DNA of 64,000 nt. Origin: Magnetococcales bacterium (GTDB taxonomy: Bacteria; Pseudomonadota; Magnetococcia; Magnetococcales; Magnetaquicoccaceae). The position numbers and the translations under genes were made by a program. The number at the start of each line of letters is the position of its first letter. Position 1 is the first letter of the stretch. Under the pieces are notes generated by a model. The model saw nothing but the letters and a program-made list of their open reading frames with translations. It made no database searches and was not told the origin of the DNA. The stretch covers positions 1-64,000 of the forward strand of contig JADFWP010000008.1 of assembly GCA_015234115.1 (NCBI GenBank), given 5' to 3'. Below are positions 46,098-52,859 of this stretch, piece after piece.

Positions 46098-47345
46098 TCA
46101 GGACACGATGCCGTATTTTTGTTTCATGAGGTCACTCATCGTCCGGGAATTGGCAAGCAGTTTATTCCGTTTCGACCGGATGGCCTTGCGGTACGCCTTC
46201 GGTTTGGCAATGGTTTTTCTGTGGATCCTGCCCAACACCCAGGCTTCGGCATGCATGAGGTGGACATCGTTCTTGATTTCCCTGGCGGAAAGGTTGAACT
46301 GACCTTGCCAACGGGGGCGCAGCAGATAGGGCCCCATCTGGTCGATGACCACGGAGCGGGTAAAATAGTCGGAGTTGTTGCCCCGTTCGATGCGCAGACT
46401 CTTTCTGGTTCGCTTCCGGATGAGTTCCGGATCCATCGAGGTGGATTTGCGCGGTTGCAAGGCGGTTTTGTACCAGGCATAGAGGCCGGGGCGCATCTCG
46501 GGTTTGATGTCCAGGACCAACCATTTGGGCCATTTTTGCTTGGTATTCTTCTTGCGTTTCATCAGGACGCGGTACTGGAGCAATCCGCCCGATCCGCCAT
46601 TCTGCTTGGAATAGGGAATCAGATCGCGGAGTTTTTTCTTGTAGCGTTGTCCGTATTCTTGTTGCAGGAGATCCCGCAACCGTTTCCTGATTTTCTGCGG
46701 AATGCAGTAATTGCTGGTGTGCAGGTCTTTCGATACCAGCCTCTTCTTGCCGTTTCTCTTTTCGTAGAAATCGGTCTTCGGCGTGCATCCTTCTATCATC
46801 TTGTCCCGGATGTCGTTTCTGGTTTTCTTTTTGACATCGCGATCTTTCAGGAGCTTCAGAACCCCTTTTCTGCGTGTGGGCCACCGGTCCGATTCCAGCC
46901 CCTGGCGATAAAGGCGCATCACCTGTTCCAGTCGTTTCTTGATCGGTTTGCCGTGTTTGATCCGTTTCTTTTTTGCCAGGCGGATGCTGGTCATGAAGCG
47001 CAGCAGATCGGCCGCCGGGTCGCCCCGCCCGCCATCATCCGGATCGTTCATGGTAAAGAAGGTCTGCTTTTTTTTGCCGGTCCGCAATTGGGCCAGCACC
47101 CCGAAGTTATCCAGATGGGGATCGCCCACACACCAGCAGCGGAATTTCTTTTTGGCGATTTTTTTGCCTTTCAGTATGCCTTCCTTTCTCAGCAGATCAT
47201 AGAAATAAGGCACGAACGCCCGAAAGAAGGAGAATTTGCTGGGCTGCTCGTCCAGGTCATCCGGATTGATTTTGTTTTCAATGCTTTGTCTTGTCAGGTG
47301 AGGATACAATTGGTGCAGTCGGTCCACCAGCCTGGTTCGTCCCAT
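46098..47345 (-). CDS. DUF2252 family protein, Lys/Arg-rich
   Basis: A 415-residue cytoplasmic protein with the DUF2252 signature CVGDPHLDNFGVLAQL and the acidic block MNDPDDGGRGDPAADLLRF, which resemble the catalytic and metal-binding sites of aminoglycoside/choline kinase-like folds. The protein is unusually basic, with many Lys/Arg clusters (KKRIKHGKPIKKRLEQ, KKKTRNDIRDK). The function of DUF2252 is not established. GAGGAAA precedes the ATG at 47345. It is separated from the defence-like pair upstream by about 160 bases. Confidence 0.82.
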   Translation of the reverse strand: MGRTRLVDRLHQLYPHLTRQSIENKINPDDLDEQPSKFSFFRAFVPYFYDLLRKEGILKGKKIAKKKFRCWCVGDPHLDNFGVLAQLRTGKKKQTFFTMNDPDDGGRGDPAADLLRFMTSIRLAKKKRIKHGKPIKKRLEQVMRLYRQGLESDRWPTRRKGVLKLLKDRDVKKKTRNDIRDKMIEGCTPKTDFYEKRNGKKRLVSKDLHTSNYCIPQKIRKRLRDLLQQEYGQRYKKKLRDLIPYSKQNGGSGGLLQYRVLMKRKKNTKQKWPKWLVLDIKPEMRPGLYAWYKTALQPRKSTSMDPELIRKRTRKSLRIERGNNSDYFTRSVVIDQMGPYLLRPRWQGQFNLSAREIKNDVHLMHAEAWVLGRIHRKTIAKPKAYRKAIRSKRNKLLANSRTMSDLMKQKYGIVS

Positions 47346-47506
47346 CGCTGTTTCCTCGTGTCTGGGGGTGATTGCCGAATCATCTGTCTGCGGCGTGGTG
47401 TACGCACGCGACAAGTCATGCGCACGGGATCATTACGGATCTTTGAACCAGAAGCAAGTCTTTCTGATTTCCGGGAGTCTTTTTTGGTCGGATTGGCGGC
47501 GGATGG

Positions 47507-48067
47507 TCATTGTTTCTGTTCGTGTACGATCCTCTGAAGGCCGCTCAAGAAACAATTAAAACTGTGTGACAGATTGTGTTGCAGGTCCATGACCCGGCCC
47601 AGTTGACGGGATCCGGCGATCTGTTCATAGCTGGGTACCAGTTTCTTGAGTTCCTGCTTTGGGTTATCCAAGGCATCCGGGTCGCGGAATTTGCGACTGT
47701 TTTGTCGCGCTGCCGTACTCTCTGCCTCCAGAGTTGTGGTCACGGCAGCCAGATCGCCCAGATACCAGGACTCCAGTTCCCGACAGACAATACGAATCAG
47801 CACATCCTCTTTTCCGCCTTCGCGGCACAGGGTTTTCAATCGTTCCTTGATGATGCGACAATCGCCCCCGTCCCGATCGCGCAACACCACAAATCGGCAC
47901 TCTGGTCGTTGCCAGGCGCGCAATTTCCTGGGAAGCTGTTTTTCCAGATCCTGTTTGCCTTCAAAGACAACGAAAAAAGGGGTGATATGGGCAGGGAGCA
48001 GTCGGGGCAGCAGTTCTTGCAGCAACGCCTTGGCAGAGGCCTCTTCCAGGAAGAAAACCAGTTGCAT
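47507..48067 (-). CDS. DUF4276 (TOPRIM-like) effector partner
   Basis: A 186-residue protein of the DUF4276 family. Acidic residues fit a TOPRIM-like metal site: FLEE at 6-9, DRD at 64-66 and the family block CRELESWYLGD at 95-105. It starts two bases after the stop of the AAA ATPase gene, so they form a strict pair. TOPRIM-type partners are the nuclease in OLD/Gabija and the toxin in PARIS (AriB, DUF4435). By analogy it is the effector and the ATPase the sensor, but this pair has not been shown to be active. Confidence 0.82.
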   Translation of the reverse strand: MQLVFFLEEASAKALLQELLPRLLPAHITPFFVVFEGKQDLEKQLPRKLRAWQRPECRFVVLRDRDGGDCRIIKERLKTLCREGGKEDVLIRIVCRELESWYLGDLAAVTTTLEAESTAARQNSRKFRDPDALDNPKQELKKLVPSYEQIAGSRQLGRVMDLQHNLSHSFNCFLSGLQRIVHEQKQ

Positions 48068-48069
48068 GG

Positions 48070-49254
48070 TCACGGCTCCACACCCGGAAAGAAACCCTGT
48101 TTCCACAGATAGCCCATTTTGTCTCCTTCTGCCATGAAGGCGGCCAGTTGACGATCATCCTGTGCCCGGTGGACTTTGGTGTATCCCTGCTGTTTGGTGA
48201 GCCAGAAGACCTCTTCGAGGGTGGTGGCATTCAGAAAATCTGGCGAATGGGTGGAGACAAAAACCTGTCCTCCCTGGTTGGCGTAGCTGCGGAACTCTTC
48301 GGCCAACTCCAGAAGCAGGGAAGGATAGAGTTGATTTTCCGGTTCCTCGACACACAGCAAGGGATGCGGTTTCGGATCGTACAGCAAGGTGAGATAGGCC
48401 AGCATCTTGATGGTGCCGTCCGAGACATAACGTGCCAGAAAGGGATCCTCGAAAGCTTGATCCTGAAAACGCAACAAGACGCGTCCCTCTTCCGTGGTTC
48501 TGGCATCCACCTTGGCAATTCCCGGGACTCTTCGGGTCAGTTTTTCCAGGATCTGATCAAAGATTTTTCGGTGGCGGTTGTAAAGGTATTGGATCATCAG
48601 CGAGAGATTCTCGCCTTCTTTGGACAGATGTTCCGCATGTCCCGCTTCTTGTTCCGGTCGGGCACGGTTGATGTGAAAATCGGAGACATGCCAGTTTTCG
48701 ATCAGGTTGCCCAACTCTTTGACCATCGGAAATCGTTCAAATTGTGCCAGTCCCTTGATGGCCAGGATGTCGGGAGATTTCAATTTCTGCTCCTCCCGGT
48801 TGAGGCGTGTGTAATCATTGACATTTTCCAGTTCGTTGGTGACGGCATAGCCGCTTCCCTGGCTGAAGTCGAGAAAATGCCAGGGTTGGCCATGGCTTCC
48901 CCGGCGGTATTTCAAGATTTCACGGCGGACGACCGGACTGCCCTCCTGTTCCCCGATGGCCAGAAAATAGGTGGCCAAAGGGGTTTCCGGCCTGATGCGG
49001 AATTTCAGTTCGATTTCAATGTCACCTTCCGCACCCCGACTGCGCACCTCATGGAATCCGCGACTGCCCCCCGTCTTGGCCAGGGCGGTGTGGATGTTGC
49101 TGGAAAAGGCCTCCCGCAAGAAGCCAAAGAGGTTGAACAGGGTGGATTTTCCGGTGCCGTTGGCCCCGACCAGCACACAGAAACGCGGAATATTTTTGAA
49201 TTCCATCTCTCTGAAGCATCTGAAATTTTTTAGACGAATCGCTTCGATCTGCAT
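48070..49254 (-). CDS. AAA_21-type ABC-like ATPase (OLD/AriA-like)
   Basis: A 394-residue ATPase with the SMC/ABC-type head. It has Walker A VGANGTGKST (29-38), a coiled middle part with RARPEQEAGHAEHLSKEGE, an ABC-like signature (YVSDGTIKMLAYL), Walker B LLCVEEPENQLYP and the D/H-loop STHSPDFLNATTLEEVFWL. It begins MQIEAIRLKNFRCF, typical of RecF-like DNA-associated ATPases. AGGAGA precedes the ATG at 49254. Together with DUF4276 it makes a two-gene module of the kind found in phage-defence islands. Confidence 0.87.
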   Translation of the reverse strand: MQIEAIRLKNFRCFREMEFKNIPRFCVLVGANGTGKSTLFNLFGFLREAFSSNIHTALAKTGGSRGFHEVRSRGAEGDIEIELKFRIRPETPLATYFLAIGEQEGSPVVRREILKYRRGSHGQPWHFLDFSQGSGYAVTNELENVNDYTRLNREEQKLKSPDILAIKGLAQFERFPMVKELGNLIENWHVSDFHINRARPEQEAGHAEHLSKEGENLSLMIQYLYNRHRKIFDQILEKLTRRVPGIAKVDARTTEEGRVLLRFQDQAFEDPFLARYVSDGTIKMLAYLTLLYDPKPHPLLCVEEPENQLYPSLLLELAEEFRSYANQGGQVFVSTHSPDFLNATTLEEVFWLTKQQGYTKVHRAQDDRQLAAFMAEGDKMGYLWKQGFFPGVEP

Positions 49255-49403
49255 GCGTTTTCTCCTGTATAGACCCACCCTGACCGGGTTTCATCCTATC
49301 CCAAGGAAGTGTGGGGCGCCAACAAGACATTTTTGGAAAAGATTTTATAGAGTGGTGTAAAAGTTGCTTCTGGCCGATTGTTGAAAGAGAGCGCTTTGAT
49401 AAA

Positions 49404-50930
49404 ATGACGCAACGGACCGCTATTCTCCTGAGACCGCTTTCTGCCCTCTTGCCACGAGACGACCGATTCATGGAATTCATTCCCCTGCACTACCCGGAAA
49501 AGCTGGAGTTGATCAATCTGCAAGGGGATGTGGGGGTGGTCACCTTGTGGTCTCCCCTGAAGGTGGTGCGGGATCATCTGCAAAGAGCGGGCATCGACCT
49601 GACCCACGAGGAGTCCCGGATTGCGGTGCTCGGGACGCTCTACGGGGAGGGATTGCCCGAACTGCTGCGCAATCTGCTGTACAATCCGCAAATTCGTTAT
49701 CTGGTGCTGTTTGGTGTGGACCTGGGCGGCGCGCGGGAGAGCCTGCTGGGGTTTTTCGCGCGGGGGCTGGAGCCTACGGTTTGTCTGGGTTCCGAGGTGT
49801 GGCAGATCGTCGGCACCCATCAGAAATTGGACAACGGCGTGCAACCGGCGGATTTTCAGGAGCGCCTGCGGTTGAGCGATCTTGGCAAGCCGGGTGACGC
49901 GGAGGCCGGAGAGGGGTTGCGGCGGTTTTTCGCGACCCTGCCGCCTGTCCAACCCGTGACCGTGGAACGGCGCGAGGTTCCTTTGGCCCGGTTCGAGGTG
50001 TTGCGTTTTCCGTCGGATCCCCGGGGACACCAGATCCTGGCCGATGCGCCCCTCGCGGCCTGGAAAGAGGTGGTTCATCGCCTTTACCGTTTTGGTCACC
50101 GGGTACGGCTGACCAAAGGGGAGCGGTTGGAGTTGCAGAATCTCAAGGTGACGATCCGCCAGCCGACCGAAGAGAGCGCCGCACATCTGCGGGAGCATGG
50201 ATTCGATCCCGAGGCTTTTGTGCGTTATCAGCAGGCCATCCTGTCCGCCGCGTTGCCGCCGGATCAGCATTACGGTTATGGCCATCGCCTGCGGAGCCAT
50301 TTCGGCGGCGATTCCCTGGTCAGGGTGGCCTCGATGCTCCGACAGGATCCCGACTCCCGGCATGCCTACATCGCCCTTTGGGACACCAAACGCGATCTGC
50401 TTTCGGAGGCTCCCGGCCATCCCTGCCTGGTCTCTTTGTTCGTGCGGCGTTTCGAGGAGGCGTTGACCCTGACTGCGACCTTCCGCACCCATAACGCCCT
50501 TCAGGCATGGTTGATGAATGTCCATGGTCTGATCGCCATTCAACGCCTGATCGCCGATGCAAGCGGTCTGACCCCTGGTGCCATCACGATCTTCAGCCAT
50601 TCCATCACCATCGATCCCCAGGGGGGTGGGTTGGAGCGGGCCAGGTCGATCCATGATTTCAGGAACCAGGAGCGTGCGCGCAGCGATTTTCAACAGGATC
50701 CCCATGGCGATTTTGTCATTTCGGTCAACGGGGAACTGGGTCAGATCGTGGTCGAGCACCGGTTTGAAGGGCAGCGGCTCAATCGCTATGCGGCTGGTAC
50801 GGCAGAGGAGATCGAACGGATGCTGGTGCGCGACGTGGCACTTGCCGACATCGGGCATGCCCTGTATCTGGGGCGGGAACTCGGACGGGCCGAGGCGCGG
50901 TTGAAAAGCCTGAAACGGGGTCATTTATAA
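49404..50930 (+). CDS. Thymidylate-synthase-like protein with N-terminal MtrA/DUF4346-like domain
   Basis: A 508-residue two-part protein. The region 190-430 is a thymidylate synthase fold: HYGYGHRLR (289-297), QDPDSRHAYIALWD (314-327) matching the phosphate-binding DPDSRR block of ThyA, GHPCLVSLFV (338-347) with Cys341 at the nucleophile position, RTHN (361-364) for RSCD and AWLMNVHG with Asn372 at the uracil-selecting Asn. The PCH His is Leu and the RSCD Asp is Asn, so it is a diverged member. Residues 30-150 resemble the methyltransferase-associated MtrA/DUF4346 domain, which may bind a pterin. It is first in an operon that ends in dCTP deaminase. Confidence 0.82.
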   Translation: MTQRTAILLRPLSALLPRDDRFMEFIPLHYPEKLELINLQGDVGVVTLWSPLKVVRDHLQRAGIDLTHEESRIAVLGTLYGEGLPELLRNLLYNPQIRYLVLFGVDLGGARESLLGFFARGLEPTVCLGSEVWQIVGTHQKLDNGVQPADFQERLRLSDLGKPGDAEAGEGLRRFFATLPPVQPVTVERREVPLARFEVLRFPSDPRGHQILADAPLAAWKEVVHRLYRFGHRVRLTKGERLELQNLKVTIRQPTEESAAHLREHGFDPEAFVRYQQAILSAALPPDQHYGYGHRLRSHFGGDSLVRVASMLRQDPDSRHAYIALWDTKRDLLSEAPGHPCLVSLFVRRFEEALTLTATFRTHNALQAWLMNVHGLIAIQRLIADASGLTPGAITIFSHSITIDPQGGGLERARSIHDFRNQERARSDFQQDPHGDFVISVNGELGQIVVEHRFEGQRLNRYAAGTAEEIERMLVRDVALADIGHALYLGRELGRAEARLKSLKRGHL

Positions 50931-50942
50931 AGGGGTCACAGG

Positions 50943-51626
50943 GTGTTTGTTTTTCTGGATATCGGTTTCACCATGGTTGGCGGACCGGAGATCGGTCCCA
51001 CGGCCTTTCTGATCCGCGAGTTGGGTTTGCCTGCCGATGCCAAGGCAAAGCTGAAGCAATGGCTGTTCACGACGGCGTTGACCACCCCGGAGGAGTTGGC
51101 CGATCGGCTGATGGTCGAGTATCGGCTGGATCCGGACGATACCCGCGCCGTGGTGGGAGAATACTGGGAGCGGCAGATCCATGACGCCTATCCCCTGCCG
51201 GGTGCCGCCGAACTCGTGACGGAGTTGGAGCAGGCCGGGGTGCCTTATGGTTTCATCACCAACATCTGGACCCCGTTCCTGATGGGATTTGCGCGGGTCT
51301 TTGCCGAAGTGTATGCCCAGGCTCCGATGTTTGCTTCGTGCGTGTCGGGAATTTCCAAGCCGGATCCGGCCTTGTATCGACAGGCGCTCGACAGTTGCGG
51401 CGTGTCGCCCGGAGAGGCGGTGATGGTCGGGGATACTTATGAGATGGATATCGCTCCGGCGATGCGGCTTGGCATGAAGAGCGTGTGGCTGTTGCACAGG
51501 CCGGAAAAAGAGAAACAGGATTTGATTGCGCTGTTGAACCGGCGCGCCCCGCTGCCGGATCTGACCCTGGCGCGGATGGCGGAGTTGAATGTGGATCGTT
51601 TGGCCAACCTGTGGGAGACGCGATGA
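50943..51626 (+). CDS. HAD-fold hydrolase lacking the second motif I Asp
   Basis: A 227-residue HAD protein with a helical C1 cap. Motif I is FLDIGFTM (Asp6 kept, second Asp replaced by Gly8), motif II is FITNIW (Thr106), motif III is ISKPD (Lys139) and motif IV is VGDTYEMD (Asp164, Asp169). Ordinary phosphatases have DxD in motif I; DxGxT-type changes at the second position are seen in phosphonatase- and dehalogenase-like members. It starts at GTG 50943 and its stop overlaps the next ATG (51623-51626). Context suggests a nucleotide-linked substrate. Confidence 0.85.
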   Translation: MFVFLDIGFTMVGGPEIGPTAFLIRELGLPADAKAKLKQWLFTTALTTPEELADRLMVEYRLDPDDTRAVVGEYWERQIHDAYPLPGAAELVTELEQAGVPYGFITNIWTPFLMGFARVFAEVYAQAPMFASCVSGISKPDPALYRQALDSCGVSPGEAVMVGDTYEMDIAPAMRLGMKSVWLLHRPEKEKQDLIALLNRRAPLPDLTLARMAELNVDRLANLWETR

Positions 51627-52267
51627 AAATCACCCGGATCGAAACCATTGGCGCAGCGGAGTTGCTGCAACGTTTTGCCACCACCCGGTTGCGCGGTCAC
51701 GGGCAACCGTTGATCTACGAACAGGCCAGGCTGGAACTGGTGCGTCAGGTCGATCCGGCGACGCTGTATCCGGCGCAGCGTTATGTGTTGCGGGAAGATC
51801 ATCAGCGGTTGCACGATCTGTATGGCTTGTTCCGGGAGCAGGGGATCGACATCTTCAATCTGGACGGGGGGCTGTTTTTCTGGTTGGCCGATCCGGAGGC
51901 GCCGAACGGAGAGGATGGCCCGATTCCGCTCATGCCGCCGGTGGTGGAAATCTCTTGTGAACCGGATGGCCGGATTCTGCCTTTGATCAACGATGGCATG
52001 CACCGGGTCTACACGGCCATGCGGCTTGGGTTGAAGATCAACATCGTTCTGGTGCACAACGTGCCTCGGGAATATCCCTATTATGCCTTTGCCCTGGAAC
52101 AGGGGTGGCAGGAGGTGATGGAACTGGAAGCGTTGCCGGATGATTTCATCAAGAAATTCTATCGGGATCCGACCCAGTACAAATCCCTGTTCCGGGATTT
52201 CAACGCCGTGTTCGACGGGATCCAGAAACAGCGCAAGCAGACCAATCCATCCTCCCTGCGCGCTTAG
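51623..52267 (+). CDS. ParB/sulfiredoxin-like protein of the nucleotide operon
   Basis: A 214-residue protein I cannot name. The segment GRILPLINDGMHRVYTAMRL (116-135) with its NDGMHR box resembles the GxxR/'DGHHR' nucleotide-binding box of the ParB/Srx fold, used by CTP-binding ParB and by ParB-fold kinases such as SbnI/SerK. Flanking strands (PVVEISCEPDGRI; INIVLVHNVP) fit that fold. The C-terminal third is helical. It is coupled to the HAD gene by ATGA and ends 10 bases before dcd. A nucleoside or nucleotide kinase role is an inference. Confidence 0.65.
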   Translation: MKITRIETIGAAELLQRFATTRLRGHGQPLIYEQARLELVRQVDPATLYPAQRYVLREDHQRLHDLYGLFREQGIDIFNLDGGLFFWLADPEAPNGEDGPIPLMPPVVEISCEPDGRILPLINDGMHRVYTAMRLGLKINIVLVHNVPREYPYYAFALEQGWQEVMELEALPDDFIKKFYRDPTQYKSLFRDFNAVFDGIQKQRKQTNPSSLRA

Positions 52268-52277
52268 GAGAAAGACG

Positions 52278-52859
52278 ATGCGACTGTCAGACCGGGAGAT
52301 CTGGAGCGCCATCCAGGAAGGCAGGATCGTGATCGATCCGTTGCCGCCGGAGCACTGTTTTGGTTCCTTTTCGGTGGATGTGAGTCTCAGCCAGGTTTTT
52401 CGTACCTTTCGGCATGTGCGGGTCCCGTATCTGGATCTGGCCGATTCCGGGAACATCCGTGCGGTCTCCGAAGAGAGCATGGAGGAGGTCATCCTGGGGG
52501 AACACGAACGTTTCATCCTGCATCCGGGTGAATTCGCCCTGGGCATGACCCGCGAGCGGGTCGGGGTGGCCGATGATCTGGTCGGCTGGCTGGATGGCCG
52601 CAGCAGTCTGGCGCGGGTGGGTTTGATGGTGCACATCACGGCCCATTCGATTGATCCGGGTTGGGATGGACACATCACCTTTGAATTTTTCAATGCCGGT
52701 CGTCTGCCGCTGGCCCTGCATCCCGGTCTGCGCATCGGGGCCATCTCTTTCGAGACTCTCTCTTCGCCCACCACCCGTCCCTATGGCAAGAAACTTGGCG
52801 CCAAGTATCACGGCCAGCAGGCGCCCTTGTCGAGTCGGCTTGGGCTGGATGGGGTGTGA
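52278..52859 (+). CDS. dcd: dCTP deaminase
   Basis: A 193-residue homotrimeric deaminase, the same length as the E. coli enzyme. It starts MRLSDREIWSAIQEGRIVID, has LVGWLDGRSSLARVGLMVH (101-119), ITAHSIDPGWDGHITFEFFN (120-139) with catalytic Glu136 in FEFFNAG, and the C-terminal AKYHGQQ. It converts dCTP to dUTP, feeding dUMP to thymidylate synthesis. GGAG stands upstream of the ATG. It is last in the operon with the TS-like, HAD and ParB-like genes. Confidence 0.94.
   Translation: MRLSDREIWSAIQEGRIVIDPLPPEHCFGSFSVDVSLSQVFRTFRHVRVPYLDLADSGNIRAVSEESMEEVILGEHERFILHPGEFALGMTRERVGVADDLVGWLDGRSSLARVGLMVHITAHSIDPGWDGHITFEFFNAGRLPLALHPGLRIGAISFETLSSPTTRPYGKKLGAKYHGQQAPLSSRLGLDGV

Follow-up and report, generated by a model that had tools for sequence, protein, structure and literature searches.

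A fused thymidylate synthase-fold protein in a four-gene operon of Magnetococcales, with possibly a new kind of dUTPase beside it

How does a bacterium make deoxythymidine monophosphate (dTMP) if it has neither a canonical ThyA nor ThyX? A 64,000-nucleotide stretch of DNA from a Magnetococcales bacterium (GenBank assembly GCA_015234115.1, contig JADFWP010000008.1, positions 1 to 64,000), which we call the window, raises this question. Between 49404 and 52859 it contains an operon of four genes, which encode a fusion protein with a thymidylate synthase (TS) fold, a HAD-family protein, a protein of the ParB-CE family, and a deoxycytidine triphosphate (dCTP) deaminase (Dcd). A sequence-only reading of the window proposed that these genes form a dedicated route either to dTMP or to a C5-modified deoxyuridine monophosphate (dUMP). 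The operon is likely to be the cell's thymidylate synthase together with a module that supplies dUMP, giving a route from deoxycytidine nucleotides to dTMP. Judging mainly by which genomes have it, the fusion very likely makes dTMP by methylating dUMP at C5, and would be the cell's only thymidylate synthase.

Two principal families of thymidylate synthase, ThyA and ThyX, are described in PMC5954106. We searched the proteins of 61 genomes, 48 from the order Magnetococcales and 13 from outside it. The fusion was found in 25 of the 48 Magnetococcales genomes and in none of the 13 others. ThyX (PF02511) was found in 19 of the 48 (one of these matches, in G019, is partial and lies near a contig start), and no genome contained both. 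The 48 genomes showed no canonical ThyA: PF00303 gave matches in 23 of them, all weak and all on the fusion itself. The four genomes with neither the fusion nor ThyX are 65–76% complete. Of the 30 genomes with a completeness of 90% or more, 17 carry the fusion and 13 carry ThyX; none carries both and none lacks both. Over all 48 genomes, the mutual exclusion has a Fisher p of 7.7e-10, not corrected for kinship. Whether the host also has thyA or thyX was a point raised from the sequence alone; across the host's order, the fusion genomes lack both ThyX (0/25) and a canonical ThyA. PF02511 and PF00303 detect no thymidylate synthase other than the fusion in these 25 genomes, 17 of which are at least 90% complete, and PF02511 has no match in the fusion protein or in the window's genome. 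Three genomes from the window's own genus (G001, G002, and G004; G and L numbers are our handles for genomes and loci) have ThyX, and a recent swap between ThyX and the fusion within this genus is suggested. The ThyX loci of these three genomes and of G027 had no match to the window's operon or its flanking genes.

The fusion is also found well beyond this order. When named genomes were scanned and only loci with conserved motifs were kept, 57 remained: 20 from Magnetococcales or Magnetaquicoccus and 37 from elsewhere. By submitter or NCBI label, the latter belong to Thermodesulfobacteriota, Myxococcota, Armatimonadota, Bacillota, Nitrospirota, Acidobacteriota, and Vulcanimicrobiota, and some are unassigned. 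(The "Myxococcota" loci carry the title "Deltaproteobacteria", and a tree places them with Thermodesulfobacteriota.) None of these 37 genomes contains ThyX, and in 34 of them PF00303 matches only the fusion.

The residues of the TS domain point the same way. In a profile alignment with ThyA from E. coli, C319 of the fusion aligns with the catalytic C146, R297 and R339 with R126 and R166 (which bind the 5' monophosphate), N350 with N177, and N342 with D169. All five residues are identical in 63/63 fusion sequences. At the position of H147, the window's protein has a leucine (L320). From what is known of thymidylate synthase and deoxycytidine monophosphate (dCMP) hydroxymethylase, an asparagine at the N177 position selects uracil over cytosine. 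The suggestion that the synthase-like protein keeps its uracil-selecting residues therefore agrees with the invariant N350. The pyrimidine-binding pocket, whose loss would have spoken against the route, is retained as well, by Foldseek for the fold and by the profile alignment for the residues. The top Foldseek matches of the predicted structure include thymidylate synthases as well as a phage dCMP hydroxylase and MilA, a CMP hydroxymethylase; the prediction has a pTM of 0.48, and we make no claim about how the domains are arranged. With the fusion as the sole detectable synthase in 25/25 and 34/37 genomes and an asparagine at the N177 position throughout, the dTMP branch of the earlier proposal is well borne out.

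Among NCBIfam models, the TS domain is most similar to the methanogen-type (archaeal) thymidylate synthase TIGR03283 (E = 4.2e-26 for the window and 5.1e-36 for L106). Six fusions (from the window, L106, L081, L075, L160, and L161) score 64.1–124.1 bits against this model, below its curated cut-off of 174.55. The fusion further differs from the methanogen-type enzymes in its two additional domains, its ParB-CE partner, and its bacterial hosts. It is also far from the canonical ThyA score: the window's fusion has 24.6 bits against NF002495, whose cut-off is 327.

The sequence-only reading described a TS-fold protein with one extra pterin/MtrA-like domain. The TS fold is correct, but the extra material is in two separate pieces, an MtrA-like domain before the TS domain and a DUF4346 domain after it. 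(The MtrA-family model NF002128 also matches the C-terminal domain.) The profile of the N-terminal domain (A3) matches the solved MtrA structure 8q3v with E = 6.4e-5, and this domain appears to be a remote homologue of MtrA from the methanogen methyltransferase (8q3v, 5laa). In the cytosolic domain of MtrA, a histidine is the corrinoid ligand. The fusion has no conserved histidine at this position, and no membrane part of MtrA was seen. Among the N-terminal columns that are kept in 95% of the 63 sequences, there is no histidine; the column nearest to the ligand position is Ser 88 (61/63 sequences), and the local alignment has an insertion there. We had considered that the N-terminal domain could be a working corrinoid protein, and we lowered this idea because no histidine is conserved there. 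In G012, the TS and HAD reading frames are continuous in one open frame of 746 amino acids (L050:4331-6568), possibly a natural gene fusion of the two.

A true ThyA needs a dihydrofolate reductase, while cells with ThyX can live without FolA. No FolA (PF00186) was detected in the 48 Magnetococcales genomes; outside the order, it was found in 10/10 genomes with ThyA and in 0/3 genomes with ThyX. Because a true ThyA needs dihydrofolate reductase and FolA was not found, the fusion would leave its pterin reduced, or else the order would have another reductase. The absence of FolA in the order also led us to consider that the fusion's chemistry might not be that of ThyA and that it might use a different reductant or a donor that is already at the methyl level; we offer this tentatively. 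PMC5954106 cites a paper titled "Life without dihydrofolate reductase FolA", and PMC9012536 describes cofactor use as little known even in the ThyA of methanogens. Overall, the fusion shares with ThyA (EC 2.1.1.45) the fold, the catalytic cysteine, the asparagine at N177, and the arginine at R166, but it has a leucine at H147 (in the window) and an asparagine at D169 (63/63), carries fused domains, and occurs in an order without FolA. With ThyX (EC 2.1.1.148) it shares the proposed product, and ThyX is likewise found in genomes without FolA; however, the two proteins are unrelated and never occur in the same genome in the set we searched.

The partner genes are conserved too. The order TS-HAD-ParB-Dcd is repeated in relatives at ~44–85% protein identity, so the operon is not a chance arrangement. 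The co-occurrence of the four families, without which the proposal would have failed, is thus confirmed: the genes are conserved together across phyla, and their order recurs within Magnetococcales. To count neighbors, we used 63 fusion loci (26 from 25 Magnetococcales genomes and 37 others) and same-strand profile matches within 3.5 kb. ParB-CE was near the fusion in 36 loci, HAD in 37, a deaminase in 33 (Dcd in 15 and a dCMP-deaminase-like protein in 18), and any partner in 45. The type of deaminase near the fusion varies by lineage, and the dCMP-deaminase-like gene accounts for 18 of the 37 loci outside the order. Its profile was built from these same neighbors; as checks, the proteins from L103 and L106 belong to PF00383, and those from L106, L076, L084, and L109 match ComEB in NCBIfam, below the cut-off. 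In many of the outside loci the neighbors are reordered, for instance HAD-ParB-TS in Armatimonadota and Dcd-HAD-ParB-TS in one Nitrospirota genome. The partners can also stay together when the TS gene is elsewhere, as HAD-ParB-Dcd (L135, L140), HAD-ParB (L137, L139), or ParB-Dcd (L136), and ParB-CE adjoins the fusion without HAD in the phage fragment L160 and in several bacterial loci.

In L101, L103, and L106, NuoE/F/G-like iron-sulfur and flavin genes lie just before a dCMP deaminase-TS-HAD cluster (by annotation in L106 and for one gene of L101, and by clustering in L103). It is possible that these genes supply electrons to the TS protein.

At the level of whole genomes, ParB-CE is the strictest partner of the fusion, a point that the earlier reading missed. 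It was found in 24 of the 25 fusion genomes of the order and in 36 of the 37 fusion genomes outside it, but in none of the 19 ThyX genomes and none of 14 control genomes. Dcd was found in 24 of the 25 fusion genomes of the order (as weak PF00692 matches, checked by profile), with no such match in the 19 ThyX genomes. The opposite distribution is seen for Dut, the trimeric dUTPase (PF00692, E < 1e-27): 0/25 fusion genomes and 17/19 ThyX genomes in the order. The earlier reading had not noticed its absence either. There was no strong Dut match in the 37 outside fusion genomes either, and three weak matches there are Dcd. All 25 weak PF00692 matches in the fusion genomes (from 24 genomes) are Dcd genes, the window's by its coordinates and the other 24 by profile; in the window's genome, Dcd itself is the only match, and no other protein of the operon reaches the cut-off. 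The genomes with neither synthase follow their genera: G031 and G043 keep Dut, and the other members of their genus have ThyX; G040 and G047 lack Dut, and the other members of their genus have the fusion. Within the order, then, ThyX and Dut are replaced by the fusion, ParB-CE, a deaminase, and mostly HAD.

ParB-CE also matched, distantly, in one long reading frame of G047, a genome with neither synthase. ParB-CE domains of a second, distant kind lie within frames of 807–1039 amino acids in the order (G036 C21:1680-2024, G042 C20:2243-2605, and G047 C44:19179-19526). Second copies of ParB-CE itself are found in G035 (L142, next to Dcd) and in G042 (L141); the first copies are beside TS.

What does ParB-CE do? 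Its structure was modelled with a pLDDT of 90. The best Foldseek match of the model has E = 1.1e-3, and sulfiredoxin has E = 2.9e-3 with a probability of 1.0; SerK and ParB-CDP are among the matches (E = 0.003 or weaker). A sequence search against solved structures gave no useful match. Along with PF24392 (2.4e-32; 112.4 bits versus a gathering score of 23), this fits the original description of the third gene as ParB/Srx-like. Across 56 sequences, D124, G125, H127, and R128 are invariant and M126 is nearly so, and by analogy this D-G-M-H-R motif is likely to be a phosphate-binding loop. ParB-CE thus shares its fold and a D-G-x-H-R loop with the ParB/sulfiredoxin/SerK superfamily, but it lacks sequence matches to solved structures and is linked to nucleotide genes.

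We propose the following route. First, Dcd would convert dCTP to deoxyuridine triphosphate (dUTP), a step that is well supported by its family. Second, ParB-CE, perhaps with HAD, might bring the nucleotide to dUMP in place of the missing Dut; this is the speculative step. Third, the TS-fold fusion would methylate dUMP at C5 to give dTMP. We read the second step from gene presence only, and that ParB-CE hydrolyses dUTP or dCTP instead of Dut is a possibility rather than a probability. PMC6770826 describes two classes of dUTPase, trimeric and all-alpha dimeric. With these known dUTPases, ParB-CE would share the reaction (dUTP to dUMP) only, as its fold differs.

Phages carry parts of this gene set. 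A first search of viral contigs with the fusion profile gave seven matches, of which one (L161) covers the full protein and six cover the TS part only. L160/L169 likewise carries the full fusion, and L170 has a divergent version. A search of phage records gave 160 hits, none of which covers 80% of the query among the matches listed; the best 20 of the 160 are mainly to the TS part. L161 contains genes for terminase, head maturation protease, and a polymerase clamp. At L161:6001-10383, two genes come after the fusion, one for an adenosylcobalamin-dependent ribonucleotide reductase (phrog_367, 4.8e-99; TIGR02505, 4.5e-98, with 329 bits where the cut-off is 340) and one for a cobalamin adenosyltransferase. 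L160 contains baseplate genes, ParB-CE, a cupin, and the fusion; the cupin lies between ParB-CE and the fusion (L160/L169). L158, which has terminase and portal genes, and L159 both carry ParB-CE, and L158 also has a dCMP-deaminase-like gene; no fusion was seen in the 30 of 67.5 kb of L158 that we covered. When the ParB-CE protein of L120 was compared to phage and plasmid collections by tblastn, there was no match. The gene content of these phages fits a role in supplying DNA precursors.

Several observations weigh against the proposed module or parts of it. No partner is near the fusion in 18 of the 63 loci (6 of these 18 are close to the end of the locus). ParB-CE is missing from one fusion genome in the order (G007, which is 57% complete) and from one outside it (G080). 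The 37 fusion genomes outside the order were picked for carrying the fusion and have no completeness values, and fusion-less genomes outside the order were sampled only as the 13 of the first set. Three of the 37 (G066, G080, and G081) also carry a single-domain, archaeal-like TS. The ThyX genomes of the order lack FolA too, and neither other dihydrofolate reductases nor FolA in the 37 outside genomes were searched for. The Dut negatives in the 62 fusion genomes concern the trimeric class; all-alpha dimeric dUTPases were not searched for. Finally, two ThyX genomes (G018, which is 97% complete, and G022) and two ThyA genomes from outside the order (G052 and G058, both 100% complete) have neither a strong Dut nor ParB-CE. 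Because these four genomes lack both, there may be a further route for handling dUTP. The two ThyA genomes lowered our odds that ParB-CE is a dUTPase, and also our odds for the broader reading that a TS-fold fusion that does not produce dihydrofolate (using another reductant or a methyl pterin), together with the first ParB/sulfiredoxin-fold dUTPase, replaces ThyX and Dut in Magnetococcales. We consider this broader reading doubtful as a whole, and the same doubt applies to its extension, that the pair also serves lineages of several other phyla and phages.

The single-domain TS that three bacterial genomes have as a second synthase besides the fusion is at L153:391-1197, L154:1278-2051, and L155:2384-3163, and scores below the cut-off of TIGR03283.

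An alternative to a dUTPase activity, which we take as seriously, is that ParB-CE is an obligate partner of the fusion, for instance a kinase, a redox partner, or an activator that depends on nucleotides, and that an all-alpha (MazG-like) dUTPase disposes of dUTP. This could well be the case, though we stop short of calling it probable. It would explain why ParB-CE accompanies the fusion in 60 of 62 genomes, even beside a dCMP-deaminase-like gene, whose product would be dUMP, and why the two are found together in phage L160/L169, with the cupin between. The fold family includes non-hydrolases (sulfiredoxin and SerK), and the four genomes without Dut and ParB-CE suggest that another route for dUTP exists. 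On the other hand, ParB-CE remains beside Dcd where the fusion has another location (L135, L136, and L140), the portion of L158 that was seen combines ParB-CE with a dCMP-deaminase-like gene and contains no fusion, and no strong Dut is found in the 62 fusion genomes.

It is improbable that the fusion acts at another phosphate level, converting dUTP to dTTP or using dUDP, with ParB-CE and HAD trimming by-products; the cell would then require neither Dut nor a step through dUMP. The absence of a strong Dut from the 62 fusion genomes, the production of dUTP by Dcd, and the triphosphate type of the reductase in phage L161 (just under the cut-off of TIGR02505) would all be consistent with this. However, the dCMP-deaminase-like gene near the fusion in 18/37 outside loci would yield dUMP, and R297 and R339 align with the monophosphate-binding R126 and R166 of ThyA.

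We give even less credence to the other branch of the original proposal, in which the TS-like protein makes a C5-modified deoxyuridine (such as hydroxymethyl-dUMP) for DNA modification or for a small molecule. In its favor, MilA and the phage dCMP hydroxylase are among the Foldseek matches, and the fusion occurs in phages. But C5-modified dUMP is not supported by the genomes: because a cell with the fusion holds no other synthase, it needs the fusion for ordinary dTMP, and this is the situation in 25/25 and 34/37 fusion genomes (PF02511 and PF00303), while the fusion and ThyX occur together in 0 of 61 and 0 of 37 genomes. Also, the recurrent neighbors that have annotations (only part of them do) encode deaminases and electron-transfer proteins rather than base-modifying ones. 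We dropped the idea of a DNA-modification cassette because most fusion genomes have no other thymidylate synthase.

That the operon is an anti-phage nucleotide-depletion or other defense cassette is hardly credible: some dCTP deaminases are defense enzymes, and a HEC-01-type pair adjoins the operon on the opposite strand, but no operon protein matches PADLOC (which is why we dropped the idea), the 25 loci fetched from relatives did not show the pair, and the presence of the fusion or ThyX in each of the 30 genomes that are at least 90% complete is the pattern of an essential gene. The adjoining pair, an AAA ATPase and a DUF4276 protein on the minus strand (47507-49278), is a HEC-01 candidate in its own right (PADLOC PDLC04144, 2.5e-202; PDLC04143, 3.5e-76). 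Beside it, also on the minus strand, is an open frame of 438 amino acids (46098-47414) without a PADLOC match.

We are left with the operon as a likely thymidylate synthase and dUMP-supply module, and its features are listed in the table.

Features of the operon and of the proteins it encodes (positions in the window)
Feature	Position	Strand	Basis
TS-fold fusion, 486 aa from ATG 49470 (508-aa form from 49404)	49470..50930	+	PF14251, PF00303, TIGR03283, Foldseek TS/MilA
N-terminal MtrA-like domain, limits approximate	49527..49934	+	profile vs MtrA 8q3v, E 6.4e-5
TS domain	50058..50609	+	TIGR03283, residues 219-402 of 508-aa form
Putative catalytic Cys codon, C319 (= C146 of E. coli ThyA)	50424..50426	+	profile alignment, 63/63 sequences
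C-terminal DUF4346 domain, pterin-binding by Pfam name	50694..50909	+	PF14251, residues 431-502 of 508-aa form
HAD-family protein, nucleophile Asp 6 present, DxG in place of DxD	50943..51626	+	PF00702, PF13419
ParB-CE protein, ParB/sulfiredoxin fold	51623..52267	+	PF24392; model pLDDT 90; Foldseek
D-G-M-H-R motif of ParB-CE	51992..52006	+	conservation in 56 sequences
dCTP deaminase (Dcd)	52278..52859	+	TIGR02274 4.9e-56, over cut-off

The coordinates and open reading frames agree with the original description of four same-strand genes with gaps of 12, -4, and 10 bases. The frame of the first gene is indeed open from 49404, where the earlier reading had started it, but the ATG at 49470 is the likelier start, judging by the aligned relatives, whose homology begins there (M-E-F-I-P-L) and not at 49404; the 22 residues before it are not shared by these relatives. 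The stretch upstream of 49404 is more GA-rich than that upstream of 49470, so we keep 49404 as possible. A scan for promoters and terminators of the operon gave signals that were not clearly above those of shuffled sequences.

In Pfam, the first gene matches PF14251 (PterinBD-DUF4346) with E = 8.7e-15 and PF00303 with E = 2e-5 (24.3 bits, just at the threshold). The fourth gene is a true dCTP deaminase, as had been claimed: it scores 189.3 bits against TIGR02274, whose cut-off is 92.8. The HAD protein was rightly called atypical. Its motif is D-I-G-x-T instead of D-x-D-x-T in 43/43 sequences, so the full DxDx[TV] with both aspartates is not present, but the nucleophile, the lysine, and the later pair of aspartates are retained (D6, G8, T10, K139, D164, and D169 are constant in all 43).

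The earlier statement that no described pathway has this set of four genes still stands for the open-licence literature that we searched: among the papers listed, none describes the fusion, the operon, or a part for ParB-CE in making thymidylate, and there was no paper on DUF4346 (subscription journals are mostly outside this literature).

The operon appears to combine a thymidylate synthase of known fold with possibly a new kind of dUTPase beside it, in a widely spread arrangement that replaces ThyX and dUTPase, even inside one genus. It provides a set of genes with which to test how thymine is synthesized, how cells that lack Dut prevent uracil from entering their DNA, and which function an MtrA-like domain has outside methanogenesis. 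If the broader reading were true, which we doubt, it would be a third genomic solution to making dTMP. PF24392 and PF14251 now have a context for tests of their function.

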